This document shows, piece after piece, positions 7,412-40,856 of a stretch of DNA of 64,000 nucleotides (positions are counted from its first letter, which is position 1; the number at the start of each line of letters is the position of its first letter). A program made the translations under genes and the position numbers. The stretch spans positions 65,072-129,071 of the forward strand of contig NW_001798996.1 of assembly GCF_000165425.1 (NCBI RefSeq), written 5' to 3'. Source of the stretch: Paramecium tetraurelia (Eukaryota; Ciliophora; Oligohymenophorea; Peniculida; Parameciidae). Under the pieces are notes generated by a model. The model searched no databases. It had not been told where the DNA came from and worked only from the letters and a program-made list of their open reading frames with translations.

Positions 7412-10400
7412 TCAACTTCTAAACAATTTTTATGGCGTTCCAAAAAAGAAACGATTGGTTGTATTTTGAAATGGCAAATTTGTAAACAGTGCACAGATTG
7501 GATCTAAGAGTTTAGCTCGATATTATTCTTCCTTCAATAAGGCATGGTATTCATAAAATGAAATATACCCATCTTGGTTTTGATCTATCTTAACAAATAA
7601 ATTGGAGCCCCATTCATTAATTTATTGTTCATAAATGATTTAGTTTTAAATATCCTAAAGTAAAATTTACTAATTACAAAAATTGTTTACAAATATTCAC
7701 ATAATTAATCCTTGCCGAACTTTCCTTCCTTATTTGCATACAACAAATAAGTAAACTTCATGATTATGGTTTCACTAAAACTGTATTATTTCATAAATCA
7801 AAGAAATTACCTCTATTGATAAAAGATAGAAACAAAGCAAATAAAATCCTAGAAGTCAATTGGATTCTTGAGTCCATTTCTTGCTAAAAAGGTGGCAATC
7901 TTATGTCCCAATAAGGGAGGAATCTTCATATCCTATAAATAATCCATAAAATTATCTTGAAGTATTTATCTATACTACTATTACAGATTATTTTTATCAA
8001 AGAATTGATTGATTGACTAGGTATTATATTAAAAATACATCAAAAAGATTCTCTATATATGTATATGGGAGTTTAGTCAATTGAAATATTTATTGCAATT
8101 ACTACCCTTTGTCTTTGGTATCTAAATGCTTACTTTGAATAAATACCTGAATTGTTCTCCAAAAACCACAACATCTGATTGTCTTGAATTTATTTGAATT
8201 AAATATAGGTAGACCCTTTGTTCAGGATTTCATAAATTTTCTTCATTGAATAATCTTCCATCTTTAATCTGAAGAGTTCTACAGCTATGACCTCCTGAGA
8301 GACCTTGACACTTCCAAATTGAGTTTCAATGAATTAATCTGCAAGTTCCTTGAATTTCCTAAAGCACATTTCATCTATGATCGAAAAGTCATCATAAGGT
8401 ATTTTGTTGGGGTGATTCTAATTAATTACCAAGTACAGAAGAGGACCTGATGTCTACAGGCCTTATTCTACATGCTTTTCAAATTCTAATAAGGTAAGCT
8501 AGGTTTTCAACACTATCTTGCATCTGGAGGAGTTTTAATAGGTATTCAAATACACTGTGGTTACTACACAACCATCATAGGTGGCTTCAGTGCCAATTAT
8601 TAATAGAGTATCATCAATTAATTCCTTTTTACTAGTTAAATACTCCTAAAACAAGGCAAGATCATTAACCATGTATTGTAAGAAGGAGATGAAATTATTG
8701 TGGAACACTTGATTATTCTTGATGAGGTCGTTCAATGACAAGGTCAAATGAGTGAGTTAAGTCACGATCTCACAAACTGACTGGTAAAGGGGTTTCAAGT
8801 ATTTCTTTAAAATCAAAGGTTAATATTTATCTATGTTCTCTAAGATCTTAACAAAGTATTGCTTAATCTCATTGATAGCTTATTGATTTGGAAGTATCTA
8901 ATAGATGGTTTCTAAGGCTTGAAAGGATAATTAAGGTTTTTGTCTCAACATTGGTTAAAAATGGAGATTAAAGGTGATGCAATACTCAGTAATTTCATTA
9001 ATCACAAGATAATCATATTGGCAGTTAACCATAACTTAATTATTCGAAGTAAAGACTTGGTTATTATCATTAAGTGCTTTTATGAGTAGTTTGAATAGCC
9101 ATTGATCTGTGGATAGGATTTAGAAGGTATTACTATCTTGGCTCATTAATCTTAAGATTGTGAGTATCTTATATTTGAAATATTTCTAGAAGTTGGCATC
9201 TACATTTTAAACGAATTGACTCTCAAGAACAAAGAGGAAGGACTATAGATTGTTGGATTCTTACAGATATTTTAGGAGTAATCCTGAATTCTCAAGACAG
9301 AGGGTCTTAAAAAATAACTTTTTTGCCTTATAACTAATTTATGGATTAGGATCTGTAATAAGTTACATTAAGATATTCAATAGATTATTGGATAGGAGGA
9401 TATTTTAGGCAGTGAAATTTTGATAATTTAATTGATAAGGCAATTTGAATATCTTTTTAAGAGTGCTTAAGATTTGCAATTTGAATCTGTTATCTGTTGT
9501 TTAATTTTGTAATTATTAGAGTAGAGCAATAAGAACGTCTTGGTGTATTTATGTAGCCAATAAAGGTTGAATGATGATGAGCATATTGATTTGAATTTGA
9601 ATTCTGATTTGATTTTTTTCAATAGATTAAATTAATCCATATTGTTGATAGTAGTTGAGAATACTCTGGAGCCAAAGTAGGTTATCAGGTAAGGCATTCA
9701 TTTAAGTCATAAATTTGCTTGCTTGATTATTTTCATATCTTGAGAATAGACATCCAACGAACCAACTGTGATAAAATATCTTTTCGTCATCAGTTTATTA
9801 GATCTCTAGAATGGCTTATCTTTTGGTAAACAATATTTATTGAAATGATTTGTCGTATAAAATTAAATGTCCTAGTAAGATGTAACCTTATTCAATGATG
9901 AGATCATTTTGTGTTTCTGAGATGATATTTAATATGGTATCTACCAATAGACTGCTTTGAATGGGGATGAGTATTTGGATGTCGTAGATGTGAATGGTGG
10001 CTGCAATTAAGGTGAGTGCTTGCATTCCCATAATTTGATTTTAATCCTTTTCATCTATGGAGCCTTGATCTTTTTCATCATCAACCAAAAGCAATTTGAA
10101 TAGGTGATTGCAATACCCATTATTGATGATCTAGACGATCAATGAATTGACATAATCTATTTTGTTGATTTTCACATGGGGTAATCTTTATAATAACACA
10201 CTTTTGAGAGATTAAATAATTTGTGCTGTCAAAATATTAAAGTCTTAAAAAAGAATGATGTCTTAATGAAGTTGGTTTAAGGAGGGTTCAAAAGAATCTC
10301 TGCAGATGAAATAGTATTTTTTGATTTATTTGTTTGATGATCTGTTTTCAAAGGATGCTAGAGTTTGTTCGACCTATTACAAGTTTTAGGTTGTGAACAG

Positions 10401-26863: not shown

Positions 26864-28169
26864 TCAACATAGTTTTACTTGATAAATCTCACATTCTACT
26901 ATATTTGGGGTTGTCTAACCAAATAAATGGGTGTTCTTAGTAGCAATCTAGTATTAATCACATTAATATGAAGTCCCTAAATTAGATGAACCACTTTGAA
27001 AATCCGCACCAAAATAAATATCATAAGCCCCAAAAGTAGGTCCATATGATTAATGACAGTAGATAGCCTATGTTTTATTTGCCTCCTTTAAATGATATAT
27101 TTAATCATGAGTCTATGAAAATATGAATGATGACATTGTATTATCCTGAACATAAGCATTCACATATTATTGCCATTAACATGGAGAAAACCCCCCAAAA
27201 ATATATCCACTTTTGGATTTAAATATCATTAATAAATTTGTATTTCCTTGGACTTTACTCCAAAAACTTTATCCATTTAATCCATCTCTGGTGCCCAAAT
27301 ATATTTGTTAAAAGTTGATTACTTTTTTATTCAATCTAGACTAAAGGATACTCATAATCTTTTATTATTAATAATATGACATCAACCTTCCATCATAAAT
27401 TATTGCAACTTATACAAAATATATTAAATTGAATTACTAAACAAATTCTGCTTAGCTAAAATTCAAGGATTTAAATTATCTTTCTAATTCCCTATATTAA
27501 GGGTAAAATTCCTGATTTGGATCCTCTGGTTCCCTTTTTATTCTATCTAGCACATCAATCAATTTTTAATTTAATTCATTACAATCATTTTTTGTAAGAT
27601 CTTCTAAATATTAATGAAGAATCTTTTCATTTTATATTATATCTTCATGTTTAATGTTATCTCCTAGTTATTAAAAATTAATTGCAAACTATTTAAATTT
27701 ATCAAATTGGGTTATCTAATTTAATTGATAATATACCTTTTGCAATTCATCTCTAATTTTATTCTTCTTCTCTAAAATACAATTAACTTAGTTTTTTAAT
27801 TCTTATTATACTTCTAGAAGGATATTTTATATTTAAGAAATTTTAGTTTCAAATTCCTCAAGAATATTATCCATGGCTTATTTATTACATTTATCTAATT
27901 TAATTAAATATTCTTAAACAGGTGTTGATATTTTCAATTTTGATAAAAAAAATTCAGGGGACTTTAAAGCCTTTTATAGTATATTATAATTATACATTTT
28001 TAACATGAATCAATTCTTAATAATTCACATTGACTGATTTAGTTTATAAATCCAAACAACATTCATCACAAACAAATTCTGTTTTGTCTTTTTCAACTTT
28101 AATGAAAAGTATAAAGGATCCTTCATGTTTAAAACAAGGAATTTATTTCATTTTAGTTTCTGTTTCCAT
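26864..28169 (-). CDS. TLDc protein A: zinc-binding module + coiled coil + TLDc
   Basis: Start ATG 28169, stop TGA 26864-26866. One 25-nt intron (27971-27995) leaves 426 residues. The N-terminus has CFKHEGSFILF ... FVCDECC, a C-x2-H ... C-x2-C zinc-binding module like a reduced B-box. A helical/coiled-coil region follows, then a complete TLDc domain: TRDGLNGQSFW, LLMIFKSKSGYIFGGFSPC, SSFIFSQTHDQIYHL, AIYCHQSYGPTFG and NTHLFGQTTPNIVECEIYQV. TLDc domains occur in proteins that protect against oxidative stress and in V-ATPase regulators; which role applies here is unknown. It is the shortest of three tandem paralogues and has one zinc module where B and C have two. Confidence 0.85.
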
Positions 28170-28351
28170 TAGAAAATCAATTAATTATTAAATAATTTGA
28201 TATTAACAATCATAAATCTTAATATATAATATTTAACTAAAAATACGAAAGAGGTCTATTATATTATAACTAACAAATATTTTAATAGATAAATTGAATT
28301 TCATGAGAGATATTTTGAAATTATTATTAAATTATTTATTTATTATAATCT

Positions 28352-30730
28352 TCACAAAAATGTTAACATGATTATTTCACATACTTCTATATTTGGAGTA
28401 AGTTAACCAAATAAATGTGTACTATTAGCATATTAATAACCATCCCAATTATAATGGTATCCTAAGTTGGAATAACCAGATTGAAAATCAGATCCAATCT
28501 ATAAATCATGTCCATTGCCAAATGTTGGCCCAAATGATTGATGACAATAAATAGCATACAATTTATTTTCTTCTTTTAAAGGATATATTAGATCGTGAGT
28601 CTATGAGAATAAAAATGATGCTGTTGCATTATCTTAAACAAAAGCACCACCCATTTTAACCCATTAGCAAGGCGAAAATCCACCAAAAATATTACCACTT
28701 TTAGATTTAAATATCATTAATAAATTAGATGTTTTTTCAACAGCCTTCCAAAATGCCTAACTATTTAGTTCCTAATTTTATCCAGAAAATATCAAATATT
28801 GATTCTTAATTTTTTTCTTCATCTTTACTTCTATATTTGTTAAGATTTTTGTACAAAAATCACTTTTTAATATTGTGTTTGTTCCAATTTTCCATGATAT
28901 ATTTACAAATTAATAAACACATTATAATTCTTTCAATCCTTCATCATTCTTTTGTAATTTAGAAGTAGCATCCGTTAAATCGGCTTCATTTTTCTCAATT
29001 CTTTATTTCTATTAATTTATTGTATTCGCTTAAGCTTCAACAGTTTATTGCAATATTTTATTTGCATTTTCCTCTTCTTTCAATTTTTTTTATTAAATCT
29101 CAATTTAGGAAATGTCTTCTTATATTTTCGCTTAAAGTTCTATTTATTTCTCTTTTAACTAAACTAATTCATCATTCATTTGTTTTATTTGTAGTGTGAA
29201 TTATTCAATTTATTTTTCATCATCTAGTAATCTTTACTTTTATTATAAAGTTTCTTCTTGTAATAATTTCAATTACTTTTCATTATCTTCAGCTGTGATT
29301 AATGTAATCATTTTAGTTGAATTAGACTAAAATTATTGAAATTCTTGTTCAAATTTTTAAGGTTAAGATTAATTTCTTTCATCTACCTCTTTTTTTAAGT
29401 CATTATAAAAGCTAAAAGAATATTCAATTATAGATAAATATTGTTATAGTCTTTAGAATTTTTTAATGAATTAGTTATCATCTAATTTAATAATACTTTC
29501 ATTATTTTCAATAAAATCTTCAATGTTTAATAAATTTAATTGATCACCTTGTAGTATATTCATTAAATTATGAATAGTTAAGATATCATATTACATTAGG
29601 CATTCAAGATTTTTCTTTAACATTTTATAAACCTTAGAGTCGTTTTCATCTTATGTTTTTTATTTTTCTTTTAACTCTGCATGCTAATCTTTTTTACACA
29701 AAATATCCACTATATCCATTACTTCTTTTTCATCCAATTCCTAAATATCCAAAATTGAAAGATCATTATCTTTCTAATCCAAATATTCCTATTCTTTAAA
29801 TTATTTATCAAGAGATTAAACGATATCAGAGATTTCTTAGTTGTATTTATTTTTCAATTAACTAAGCATTTGACTAGTATTTTTAAATTTTCCTTTTCTT
29901 TAAGTATGATATGATTCATTGATGCTTTCCTTTTCTTCATTATATTTGCGGAATCTTTAAATAACATCGCTTAAACTAACATATTGATTATGAAATTCTT
30001 AAATGCATTAAACACATGCAAATCTATTTTAGGGTTCAGACTCATATAGATTTAAATCAACCATAATAATCACTTAGTTATGTATTTTACAATTCTACTT
30101 CAAACTTAGGGTTTTCTATATAATTTATTAAAAACTTACATTAATCTCCATTTAAAATGGCTCTGATTTGATCTAAAATGATTATTCTATTTTTTTGATT
30201 GATAATATTATTTGTAAGTATTCTTGTGAACCTTACATTTGCTTAACCTATTCCTTAATGGACCGAAAGAAATTTGAAATTATTTTTGATTTCTCTTGTT
30301 CATCAATATTACCTGAAGTGCCTTCTTGTATTGAATTATTTTCATCCAAGCTTTTTGATTCTCCTTGAGAATCTCCTTATTCTATTTCTTTCTAACTTTG
30401 AGCAATTTTTTCACCAATATTATTTTACAACTAACCAATCACTCCCTTCATAAGTTGATCAAGCTTATCAACTGATTATTAGAGTTCCTTCATATAATTG
30501 ACTCGTTACTAAGTTTATTATTTAATTTCCATTTCGCATGTATTTCTCTTTTCCTTAGCTTTTATAAAATCTTCATACAAAATGATGTTTTGAATTCCAA
30601 TCATTTATATAAGGCATTTTACACACAGATATTTGATATCTTATGAATCAGATTAGATCTCTTAGACAGCGATGATTTCAAAATTAGCATGATTTTGACA
30701 TATTCTTTTTCCAAATTCTTGATCAGACAT
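28352..30730 (-). CDS. TLDc protein B: two zinc-binding modules + long coiled coil + TLDc
   Basis: Start ATG 30730, stop TGA 28352-28354. One 24-nt intron (30116-30139) leaves 784 residues. Module 1 is RICQNHANFEII ... YLCVKCL; module 2, after the intron, is NCKIHNQVIIMV ... FACVQCI. Both are C-x2-H ... C-x2-C. About 400 residues of coiled coil follow (for example LDDEKQIEQFTLQIKQMNDE). The C-terminal TLDc domain has LLMIFKSKSGNIFGGFSPC, SFLFSQTHDLIYPL and YCHQSFGPTFGNGHDL, ending in EVCEIIMLTFL. It lies 182 bases upstream (in gene order) of copy A, same strand. The order resembles TRIM-like scaffolds with TLDc instead of a SPRY end domain. Function inferred only. Confidence 0.85.
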
Positions 30731-31442
30731 TATTTAATTTATTAACCTTATAAATACTTTAATTACTTTATTTGTATACCCTTCAACGTTTAATCTATTT
30801 AAGTGATAGCTCAGAAAATTATGTATTATTTAGAAATGTACTTTTTTACAATTATTCTACCTATTCGATAAAAGTATGAATATTAAAATAAAAAGGTTAA
30901 GCCAAACGGTTAATCTATTTTATATTTTCTTATTCCAATTGTTGTAGCATACTTAAATAGAAGAGTTTCTAATGGAATATCTAAACAAATAATTATTGAG
31001 AGTATATAGAACTTAATAATATTTTTAATTGGCACTGTTGTTAAAATTTAAACCCTCGAAAAGGCAATTTGATTTTTACCAAAACAAGATATTTTTCATT
31101 ATATCTTTTTAATATAAAATTGTCAAACACAGATAATGTAAGGAAAAATCCAATTTTGGCAGCAGTTTTTTGTGCAAGATCCTTAAATCATTAATTTAGA
31201 ATTTCAAATAATAATTTGTTGCTTAATTATATGTATTTCAAAATATTGTAACATGAATTTTTTGGAGGTTTTTAAATCATTCTATCTTTACTATTATCAT
31301 TTCTATTAAGGCAAAAATGTATAATATTATTTGATTTTTTAGGTAAATTTTGTTTGGATTAATGCAATTGCATAAATATTAAGAATTCATCTATCAAAGT
31401 TATTTTTTATTTATATTTGATTTATTTTATATATATATAATA
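30731..31442. other. intergenic between TLDc copies B and C
   Basis: About 710 bases of AT-rich sequence with no ORF, repeat or RNA gene that I can support. It is the largest spacer inside the cluster. Confidence 0.5.
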
Positions 31443-33915
31443 TCATTTTAAAATAAGTTCAAATACTTCACATTCATCTAAATTTGGTGTTGCTTAACCA
31501 AACAAATGAATATTTTGAGTTGTAATTTTATGTTAATCAATTTAATAAGATGTCCCTAAAATGGAAGTTCCACTTTAAAAATCAGTACCAATTTAGAGGT
31601 CATGTCCGCTTCCAAAAACAGGACCTTAATTGGAGTGACAATAAATAGCATTAGCTTTATTAGCTTCTTTCAAAGGGTAAAATTAGTTATGAGTCTAAGA
31701 AAATATAAATGATGATAATGTATCATCTTGAACATATCCATTAATAGTTTATAACCATTAACAAGGAGAAAAACCACCAAATATCCTTCCATTCTTAGAC
31801 TTAAATATTATCAGTAAATTAGATTTTCCATTTATTTTATTCCAAAAGCTAGTCTGATTTAGTCCATCCTTAGTTGCTTAATAAATAAGTAGTTAACACT
31901 TAATTGTCTTTTTTACTTTAGTCTCTATCTAATTAAATACTTAACCCGAAAAGTAAGTACTGAGAAGTTTAGATTATTCTTTTAATTACTTAAGGTCTTA
32001 TGATGACTAATTGTATTATTACTGAATCCTTGCAATGTCTTGATCCTTTATGGTTAATTTTCCTTAGGCATCTTACTAGATTCTAGTATTTTCTTATTTT
32101 AATTATTAGATTTCCTATTTTAGTGGTTCAATCTACTTAAAATATTCATCTTTTTTCAATATTTCCTCTTTTTTTTCTTATTTTAATTATTCTATTTACT
32201 AATTTAGGATTTCAACCTTCTAAGTAAATTTCTCTTTTTCCTCTAAATTTTTTTTATTTTCTTGTTTTGCTTGTTCTATCTACAAATTCATTGTTTCAAC
32301 CTGCTTATTCTAATTATTCAGTTATGTTTGGATAGTTTATTGTTATTACTTATTTTAAGTTAATTATTCTGTCAATGTAGATAGTTATTTATAGTTTGCT
32401 TCAGCCATCATCAATAATTTGATTTTATCCGAATTTTATTTGAAAGTTTCATATTATTATTTGATAATTTATGATTGAGTTTCTTATTTAGAATTCAATA
32501 ATTCAGATAATTTTCCTTTTTTCTATAAATCGTCTATTTCTTGTTGTAGAGTCTTATAAAAATTAAATACATCATCAAGGATTGAAATATATTCAACCTG
32601 TAATTCAAATTTTAAAAAAAATAAATTCATATCAGGAGCTTTCTCAATTTCTTTAACTTATTTAATCTCATCTACCAATTATTATTATTAATTTTAATTC
32701 TATATTCTTAATAAATTATGTTTTGTTAGCAAGTCATATTTCATCAGATTCTCCAAATTTTATTTTAGATTCTAAAAGAAAATTGCATCAATTTAATCTT
32801 ATTCAACTTACTCCTTTTTTAATTTTTTATGATTATCTTTCAAACAAATAATTTCAACAGCCTTCTAAATTTCCTGGTCATTTAACTCGTATAATTCTCC
32901 AACCACAGTTTAATTAGCTGATAACATATCTTTATTAATTATTCTCTTTCTTTCTAATTATTGTATGATATCAGTTAAGGTTTAATTATAAATATCCTTT
33001 AATTATTAAATAGATTTAATGGCAGAAGTAAACTTATTAAATCTGTTATTATTGTAATTAGTAATCATCTAATTTTATTACCTTTTGAATTCTTTCCATT
33101 TTATATTTGCATCTTCTATGGTTATATATTTTCTTTTTGGATATTGCTGAATACATCTTGAACAAGCCAATCTACTTTGGTTGGATTCGTTTTTTTTTTC
33201 ATTGAGATGAATCATAATGATTTCTAATCCATGATCATTATTAATACATCTTTAACTTAAGCTAAGAGTTTTCTAATTAATTTAATGTAAAACTTACATG
33301 TTTATCAACCTCTTTTTGAGGGATAGGTTGCTCTATTTGATATTAGGATTTAATTTTTGTAATTGACCCAAATATTTGAGAGAATTATTATGCATTTGCC
33401 ATATACGACAGTTGGCTTTAGACATTTTCCATTAACTCTTTAAATTCATCAATATTTACTTTTTCTTTGGGAATATCATAATTCAAATTTCCCTTATAGT
33501 GAATAGATAAAGTTTCAAAGTCTTAATCAAATTTTAACTCTTCTACAGATTACTCCTTAAATTAAATTTCTGATTTATTTGAATTCTTAATATTATCATC
33601 AAAATTATCTTAAAGCTTCCTAAATGTATCTGAAAAAAGTTTATTAATTTCAGAGACAGATGTTTAAAGATTCTTTATATTTTCCAATGTTTTTTGGGTA
33701 TCGTTCATTACTTATATTTTACACTTTTATTTCATATCCTAAATCATTTTAAGCCCTTCTTTTAGAAGTACGATGTAATTTTCGTCAACTCTCTTAATCA
33801 AACATTTAACACATAAAAATTTCTCTTTCTTTTCTTTTGCTGCTTTTAGATCAACAGCAACTATTTCTAATTAATGAGTTTCACAAATTTTTATTTCAAG
33901 CTCGATAGATGACAT
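31443..33915 (-). CDS. TLDc protein C: two zinc-binding modules + long coiled coil + TLDc
   Basis: Start ATG 33915, stop TGA 31443-31445. One 25-nt intron at the same place as in copy B leaves 815 residues. Module 1 is KICETHQLEIVAVDL ... FLCVKCL; module 2 is RCINNDHGLEIIMI ... LACSRCI, where spacing to the His is longer. A coiled coil of about 450 residues, very rich in Gln/Lys/Glu, includes several heptad runs. The TLDc domain has TKDGLNQTSFWNKI, SKNGRIFGGFSPC, SSFIFSQTHNQFYPL and GPVFGSGHDL. It is the longest of the three tandem copies. The matched intron and module order show that B and C are the closest pair in structure. Confidence 0.85.
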
Positions 33916-39573: not shown

Positions 39574-40031
39574 GTATTAATTTATATGTTATTTTTATTC
39601 ATTATATTTGATTTCTTACGTTACATTAATTTGATTTGATCATTTCTGTTTCATCTAACGGATAAAAATCTTTAATAGCAAATTATTAATAATATCCAAA
39701 GTATAGGTATGTTATGGTAGTTATACTTCCTCCAAATGAAGCATTCTATTAATTACATGTATTTATTTATATTCAAAAGAAACTAAATAAAACACTTTAT
39801 TAAATATTGGAGAAAAAAAGGCTAGAATTTGAAAATTAAGAATAATTCTTAAAATTGTAAGACTATTCTCATCATATTTCCTTTAAACACTATTAAATGA
39901 TTTAATCTTTCTAATCTAATTTTCCGAATGTTCTGATTAATTAGAGATTGAATCTAGAAAAATAAAATTGATTTGACATCATTGGACTTAGAGCAGAGAA
40001 AACAATCAAAAACAGTGAATAAATGTATTAG
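39574..40031. other. intergenic
   Basis: AT-rich sequence with no supported gene. The last part may include further decayed sequence belonging to the relic TLDc piece that follows. Confidence 0.45.
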
Positions 40032-40411
40032 GGAACAAGAGATGGGTTAAGTGATCATTTTCGATATTACATTAAAGGCAGATTTAACTTGCTAATAATT
40101 TTTTTATCCAAAGATGGATATGTATTTGGCGGATATACTCCTTGTTTATGGATTCCAACTTTTTACAGGGAAATATGTTTAAGATGATTCATTATCCTCA
40201 TTTTAATTCTCGTAAACTCATGAATAGATTTATCATATAAAAAACAATCAAAGAGATAAAGCTATTTATTGTAATTATTATCATGGACCATGTTTTTGTA
40301 GTTGGGATATCAAAATACTATCAGATTTTTAAAAAGATCTTCTTATCATATATGAACGACTAATAAGTGTGATTAATATTTAATTCATAAAAAAAAAACT
40401 CATTTATTTCG
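40032..40411 (+). pseudogene. decayed TLDc domain (relic of a fourth paralogue)
   Basis: Plus-strand pieces match the TLDc domain of protein A: GTRDGLSDHF, FNLLIIFLSKDGYVFGGYTP, then in another frame QDDSLSSFQFSQTHEQIYHI and KAIYCNYYHGPCF, then in a third phase TNKCDQYLIHKKKTHLF. The first frame change sits at a five-T run (about 40,161-40,165), and an in-frame TGA follows the SSYHI block. No TLDc ATG, zinc module or coiled coil precedes it on this strand. The CDQY...THLF block is closest to copy A. A real gene with introns cannot explain the breaks, because no GT...AG pair fits them. It is a dead copy or a sequence with several assembly errors; decay is more likely. Confidence 0.78.
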
Positions 40412-40669: not shown

Positions 40670-40856
40670 CACCTTGGAGAGAAAATATTCTGGTGATTTT
40701 GTAGTGCCTTTGATAATTTTAAGAAGTTCTAAATACTTCATCAGTGTAGATATTTTTCTCGAATACACGCAGCATTTATCACAAACTAAGCTCAGTTTTG
40801 TTTATATTTTGTAAATTCAATCCAGCATGCTTCAAAAAAGGTAGATTTTTAATCAT
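40670..40856 (-). pseudogene. decayed zinc-module N-terminus of a TLDc paralogue, inverted
   Basis: Minus strand from an ATG at 40856: NLPFLKHAGLNLQ, then NKTELS, then after a frame change VCDKCC and later TTKSPEYFLSKV. Protein A has the same order: IPCFKHEG, DKTEF, VCDECC, ALKSPEFFLSKL. One zinc-ligand Cys has become Phe and the frame breaks before VCDKCC. The 25-nt intron that protein A carries just before ALKSPE is absent here. This piece points towards the TLDc relic at 40,032-40,411, which is on the other strand. Confidence 0.7.

Follow-up and report, generated by a model that had tools for sequence, protein, structure and literature searches.

A Paramecium tetraurelia protein family with Cys/His modules, predicted coiled coils and C-terminal TLDc domains is TRIM-like in layout

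TRIM proteins are built in the order zinc module, coiled coil and C-terminal domain; the B-box has eight ligands, and the known members of the family come, to our knowledge, mainly from animals. Here we describe three neighbouring genes (A, B and C) on the minus strand of a 64,000-nucleotide stretch of the genome of the ciliate Paramecium tetraurelia (the window; positions 65072-129071 of contig C43, in an assembly of 69 Mb and 231 contigs), each encoding one or two Cys/His modules, a heptad-patterned linker and a C-terminal TLDc domain. This architecture is real, conserved and expanded in the genome, and it is TRIM-like in layout. The reading that we prefer, to which we would give a probability of roughly 0.45 on the strength of the sequences, is that the proteins are RING-less, TRIM-like scaffolds that have expanded in this ciliate. 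What they would share with the RING-less members of the TRIM family is the order of zinc module, coiled coil and C-terminal beta domain, together with the SPRY-like and WD40 tails found in this genome on related front halves; they differ in having single four-ligand modules and a TLDc tail.

The TLDc domain (Pfam PF07534) is found at the C-terminus of OXR1, NCOA7 and yeast Oxr1p, as it is in the window proteins. It also occurs in mEAK-7 (TLDC1), where, according to passages of PMC9263379, an EF-hand-like domain precedes it and a helix follows it, whereas the TLDc domain is the last element of the window proteins. Within the genus, passages of PMC7702705 describe a TLDc family and a WD40 family that are highly duplicated in P. 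bursaria only, among three species, and suggest an antioxidant use. Expanded TLDc genes in a Paramecium are thus common to both cases, but the passages of that paper on TLDc genes make no mention of zinc modules or coiled coils. At the level of titles and the starts of abstracts, the literature on TLDc/TLD and tripartite-motif proteins with ciliates contained no description of the architecture, which at that level fits a preliminary description of this DNA in which the combination had been called undescribed. Single members may already be listed as TLDc or B-box proteins in protein databases.

The window DNA is of the ciliate nuclear type, with genetic code 6 and short introns, and the proteins were obtained by translation with code 6 after short GTA...AG introns had been spliced out. 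The coordinates first given for the three genes (26864..33915) proved correct, and those of the modules and domains agreed on re-translation, as listed below (coordinates in the window, all on the minus strand).

31443..33915, minus: gene C, long type, 815 amino acids; exons 33298-33915 and 31443-33272, 25-nucleotide intron 33273-33297
33802..33885, minus: gene C putative zinc module 1, C-x2-H...C-x2-C (pattern and alignment, re-translated)
33153..33248, minus: gene C putative zinc module 2, variant C-x4-H...C-x2-C (pattern and alignment, re-translated)
32160..33059, minus: gene C heptad-patterned (predicted coiled-coil) region, residues 278-577, interrupted (heptad test)
31455..31982, minus: gene C TLDc domain, residues 637-812 (Pfam PF07534, E 7.7e-35)
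28352..30730, minus: gene B, long type, 784 amino acids; exons 30140-30730 and 28352-30115, 24-nucleotide in-frame intron 30116-30139
30614..30700, minus: gene B putative zinc module 1 (pattern and alignment, re-translated)
30005..30091, minus: gene B putative zinc module 2 (pattern and alignment, re-translated; AF2 model)
28916..29842, minus: gene B heptad-patterned (predicted coiled-coil) region, residues 289-597, interrupted (heptad test)
28370..28882, minus: gene B TLDc domain, residues 609-779 (Pfam PF07534, E 6.5e-31)
26864..28169, minus: gene A, short type, 426 amino acids; exons 27996-28169 and 26864-27970, 25-nucleotide intron 27971-27995
28059..28136, minus: gene A single putative zinc module (pattern, re-translated)
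27410..27913, minus: gene A heptad-patterned (predicted coiled-coil) region, residues 78-245, interrupted (heptad test)
26876..27391, minus: gene A TLDc domain, residues 252-423 (Pfam PF07534, E 7.9e-37)

Genes B and C have an intron at a matching position, and the intron of gene A is one of four stop-free options. The gene finder used favours introns near 25 nucleotides, and its intron-length peak is partly built in. It fused B and A into one protein of 1268 residues, a model that was rejected as B has a complete TLDc domain and A a start of its own. Another candidate intron in B was also rejected, because the residues kept when it is left unspliced align with gene C. The 24-nucleotide intron of gene B (30116-30139, minus strand) is in frame and stop-free, and an unspliced message would remain readable through it.

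The shared plan attributed to the three neighbours in the preliminary description, namely Cys/His module or modules, coiled coil and C-terminal TLDc domain, was borne out by Pfam, ligand alignment and heptad test. For the TLDc domain the profile search, which could have failed, returned PF07534 in all three proteins, covering 164-168 of the 170 profile positions at 108-127 bits against a cut-off of 24.5, so that the domain is nearly full-length in each, in line with the earlier claim of a complete one. When the gene C product was scanned against NCBIfam, the sole match was to a bacterial TLD family and fell well short of the cut-off.

Genes B and C encode two modules each and gene A one. Their form is C-x2-H-x3-[EQ]-I-x2-[VI]-x-L ... 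[FLY]-x-C-x2-C and then a helix, strict only at the four ligands, and the first module begins at residue 11-12 in each window protein. The number of modules and the C-x2-H...C-x2-C pattern reported earlier were thus right except for the second module of gene C, which has C-x4-H; this spacing recurs in the first module of three copies on contig C16, and the search pattern was widened to C-x1-4-H after gene C and a further locus (L034) had been seen. To avoid a circular test, conservation was judged on a full-length alignment rather than on pattern-picked rows. It held eight of the nine long-type proteins of the genome, three of them close C16 copies (the ninth, C205:241263, was omitted because the gene finder had not joined its module and TLDc domain). 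All eight Cys/His ligand columns were invariant, in an alignment where only 24 of the 589 columns before the TLDc domain were so (hypergeometric p ~2e-12), whereas in the columns of the seven other Cys/His residues of B before the TLDc domain the commonest residue occupied at most 38% of the rows. Conservation of the modules is therefore not a matter of chance. A separate module alignment (A8) consisted mostly of pattern-picked rows, and its invariance is not taken as evidence. Pfam gave no match for the modules in A, B or C. When the five window modules were aligned and 100 residues around module 2 of B were modelled with AlphaFold2 (AF2), the result was a beta hairpin followed by a short helix and a longer one of 52 residues (48-99), with a mean predicted local distance difference test score (pLDDT) of 77.5 and a predicted template modelling score (pTM) of 0.42. 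We infer that the modules bind zinc.

Behind the modules lies the presumed coiled coil. In each protein the number of heptad-patterned linker residues exceeded all 200 of 200 composition shuffles (A, 110 against a maximum of 97; B, 225 against 194; C, 177 against 170), and the linker of A and those of the long types are of strongly unequal length, as expected from the earlier claim of a coiled coil of very different length. A coiled coil following the zinc modules, as in TRIM proteins, is thus indicated by the heptad test and by the AF2 helix (48-99) after the module; by analogy it would mediate dimerisation or assembly. The great and variable length of the heptad regions, and the existence of relatives with WD40 tails, would also suit coiled-coil proteins with a structural role in the ciliate cortex, at basal bodies or in the cytoskeleton, in which zinc modules and TLDc domain serve as assembly end caps. 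We think this rather unlikely: conservation is far stronger in the module ligands and the TLDc core than along the rod, and an expanded family with decayed copies (see below) would be unusual for core structural parts.

Genome-wide, PF07534 gave 69 matches, which merged to 63 places, a lower bound. Of these, 40 were examined for modules; 20 had a same-strand module upstream and 20 did not, the latter including six (C200, C202, C187, C168, C183 and C47) for which only 1.4-1.5 kb upstream was covered. The antisense control gave 1/20 for the module-bearing places and 3/20 for the others. For six of the module-bearing places (C205:241263, C205:291909, C207:91267, C128, C159 and C212) the gene finder gave no single model spanning module and TLDc domain, but the two share a strand and lie within 2.6 kb. 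The copy count that the preliminary description had proposed therefore comes to at least 20 module-TLDc genes in P. tetraurelia, nine long (two modules) and eleven short (one module). When BLAST was run with the TLDc domain of gene B alone, the top 20 places were exactly the 20 module-bearing ones, so that this TLDc subtype and the module go together; the next ranks were five places not examined for modules, C75:87860, C72, C71 and two more C75 places outside the 63. When the front half of B was compared with those of four further long-type TLDc genes, the best-matching stretches showed 28-38% identity.

Some further copies were seen in passing. Three tandem TLDc genes of the window subtype lie at C75:87854-91937, two of them absent from the Pfam-based list of 63. 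At locus L015, from position 8476 (C16:295405 to ~296100, plus strand), first- and second-module pieces of a further long-type copy lie in separate gene models, some 1.5-2 kb short of the C16 end; there was no PF07534 match past C16:294936, the last 1 kb lying outside the examined range.

The size of the family bears on the antioxidant (OXR-type) use proposed for duplicated TLDc genes in P. bursaria (PMC7702705), in which such proteins would have expanded against oxidative stress. The passage in that paper contains no test of function and describes the duplication as confined to P. bursaria, one of three species compared, yet the 69-Mb genome studied here, far larger than the 26.8-Mb genome of P. 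bursaria (PMC7702705, Table 1), also has at least 20 such genes. Most positions conserved in OXR1-type domains are moreover not retained in the window type, and we consider an antioxidant role for these proteins most improbable.

The module-bearing TLDc domains form a divergent clade. In a tree of 26 TLDc rows (eight of the 34 proteins were left out as the TLDc hidden Markov model (HMM) missed them), the 20 module-bearing rows and six OXR1-type rows of the same genome were split with 100/100 support, so that window-type rows fall outside the OXR1-type clade; two of the six (L001 and L004) bear the OXR1-type label for LysM and TLDc matches in Pfam, the others for their place in the tree. Among 11 module-bearing rows TLDc identity was 39-72%, against 12-21% to two OXR1-type rows, and among the 41 positions at which five or more of the six OXR1-type rows agree, the module-bearing rows had a different commonest residue at 27 and the same one at 14. 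The window proteins also differ from OXR1, NCOA7 and Oxr1p in having no Pfam match to LysM or GRAM. Long and short types were intermixed in the tree: the short C205:244100 clades (91/94) with five long-type rows, including its tandem neighbour C205:241263, and its TLDc domain is 67% identical to that long neighbour and 61% to the short gene A. The tree thus suggests tail exchange between long and short types, although not significantly.

The distance from OXR1 also matters for the idea that the proteins are TLDc-based V-ATPase regulators, in which the TLDc domain would bind V1 as in Oxr1p, NCOA7 and mEAK-7 and the zinc-coil part would direct it to a type of vesicle such as the food vacuole or contractile vacuole. 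The TLDc domains of yeast Oxr1p and mammalian mEAK-7 bind V-ATPase (PMC9263379, PMC11094088), and a mixed TLDc profile matched the NCOA7, OXR1 and mEAK7 structures (best E 1.4e-28). That profile, however, included three OXR1-type rows besides three window rows; a window-only profile reached just skywalker (E 0.041) and mEAK-7 (0.49). According to PMC9263379, in the passages concerned, mEAK-7 grips V-ATPase also by its C-terminal helix, beyond the point at which the window proteins end, and proteins with the LysM-TLDc layout of OXR1 (L001 and L004) are encoded separately in the genome. The V-ATPase, vesicle or stress role entertained in the preliminary description drew on the TLDc name and found no support in a separate clade that departs from so many OXR1-type positions; the case for V-ATPase regulation by the window proteins is weak, and we regard it as unlikely. 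A mEAK-7-like type in the genome (L009 and L062) was a guess by eye and was set aside, Pfam showing just TLDc in L009.

Related front halves also occur with other tails. Residues 1-303 of B match genes on contigs with no TLDc match (C66, E 1.7e-10; C104, 1.3e-9; C20, 7.7e-9; C28, 1.2e-5; and others), and residues 1-238 of A match a short-type gene on C12 with a SPRY-like tail (E 5.1e-8). WD40 repeats (PF00400) were found in L024, L040 and L041 (E 1.3e-11, 3.7e-12 and 5.5e-27), the WD40-tailed relatives being the C20 and C28 genes and the L024 gene, which lies on the contig of the window:

about C43:15390-17182, plus: L024 4749-6541, zinc-coil front half and WD40 repeats, adjoining a long-type TLDc gene

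The tails of the C66 (L038) and C104 (L039) genes are related to each other (E 1.5e-13) and look SPRY-like by eye, and SPRY was the best Pfam match for the tails from C66 (E 1.4e-4) and C12 (L063; 4.9e-4). Other-tail genes thus number three for WD40 and three, on weak evidence, for SPRY-like tails. The long front half is joined to TLDc, WD40 and probably SPRY, the short one to TLDc and probably SPRY, and TLDc is then one of probably three interchangeable tails. A variable C-terminal domain, as in TRIM proteins, is in this way seen in TLDc and WD40 on homologous front halves, with the SPRY-like tails weakly scored.

Several results weigh against the scaffold reading in its TRIM-like aspects. 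No RING was found among Pfam matches up to E 1 in A, B and C, and PF00643 (B-box) had no match in the three proteins; across the genome it gave 43 stretches, none of which came closer than 21 kb to one of the 63 TLDc places. PDB profile searches with the modules returned no B-box, hhalign of module against B-box gave a probability of 2%, and when the module HMM was run on TRIM B-boxes, 77, 32 and 54 of 300 ligand-preserving shuffles scored as high. Foldseek with the module model gave nothing significant (best E 2.9), zinc ribbons and TRIM B-boxes being among the weak matches, with the TRIM29 B-box third at E 4.1. As for the tails, both SPRY scores lay under the Pfam gathering score, Pfam gave no match up to E 0.1 for the C66 protein as a whole or for the C104 tail, none of the 12 stretches in a genome-wide PF00622 search lay at C66, C104 or C12, and when the L038 and L039 tails were used in profile searches of the PDB no SPRY came up, FAM3C at E 0.58 being the only match. 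One TLDc clade per type, long and short, was not rejected by approximately unbiased (AU) tests (p 0.082 and 0.105), and the full-length AF2 model of B (mean pLDDT 46) was too poor for use. Identity of the modules with B-boxes was consequently dropped, since Pfam, PDB profiles, Foldseek, hhalign and the shuffle test all failed to show it, and is kept as resemblance only. The suggested TRIM-like plan with TLDc in place of SPRY therefore stands for the layout and for relatives that end in WD40 or SPRY-like tails, but not for the RING, of which no match was found, or for the modules, which are not detectably B-boxes. We speak of likeness in layout; membership of the TRIM family by descent does not follow from these data.

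If the proteins are RING-less, TRIM-like scaffolds, one or two single-zinc modules would cap a long coiled coil, which would lead to a dimer or higher assembly; a swappable C-terminal domain (TLDc here; WD40 or SPRY-like in relatives) would bind a target, and the proteins would cluster on, or bridge between, whatever the tail recognises. Local duplication, perhaps with tail exchange, would then produce a repertoire. The roles given here to tails and modules are modelled on TRIM proteins; target binding by the tail is inferred, as is every cellular role. A ciliate family with such a layout and no RING would mean that the combination of zinc module, coiled coil and interchangeable target domain originated, or persisted, well beyond the animals, and TLDc, so far studied mostly in connection with V-ATPase and stress, would gain a second setting. 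It also raises the question whether the tail selects the target while the front half merely clusters it.

The tandem arrangement of long and short genes is seen again at C205:241-245 kb, and two decayed fragments of the family lie close together in the window, on opposite strands and 6-7 kb from gene C:

39984..40335 (C43:105055-105406), plus: decayed TLDc fragment of the window subtype in two frames (E 3.1e-6 and 2.2e-6; 29/58 and 29/53 identical to A)
40670..40801 (C43:105741-105872), minus: decayed short-type front-half fragment (E 0.0016; 19/42 identical to A residues 29-70)

Matches to the front halves seem to lean towards contig ends, 21 of 42 (on 25 contigs) lying within 30 kb of an end against 20% expected, or 16 of 33 by cluster, with the 30-kb cut-off set after inspection and contig ends that may not be telomeres; many of the 42 were not inspected individually, and C128, 36.5 kb from an end, is not included. 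Both the decayed fragments and this lean would suit copies that are redundant, have little function at present and come and go by a largely neutral birth-and-death process. Such an account is improbable in our view, given open frames of 426-815 residues and ligands and a TLDc core that are invariant across otherwise divergent copies (front halves 28-38%, TLDc domains 39-72%). A more specific proposal is a TRIM-like recognition repertoire whose front half is a reduced zinc knuckle joined to a coiled coil, with tails (TLDc, WD40 and SPRY-like) exchanged between neighbours in duplicating, partly chromosome-end clusters and possibly recognising invaders, symbionts or self; it is a doubtful extension of the scaffold reading.

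One further gene on the same contig, L025 286-1334 (C43:22009-23057, plus strand), has an N-terminus with eight Cys/His residues that was taken by eye for a B-box. This candidate was rejected, as Pfam and PDB searches gave no B-box and SPRY reached only E 0.041, below the Pfam cut-off. The gene adjoins and converges on a short-type TLDc gene, and its C-terminus looks SPRY-like by eye.

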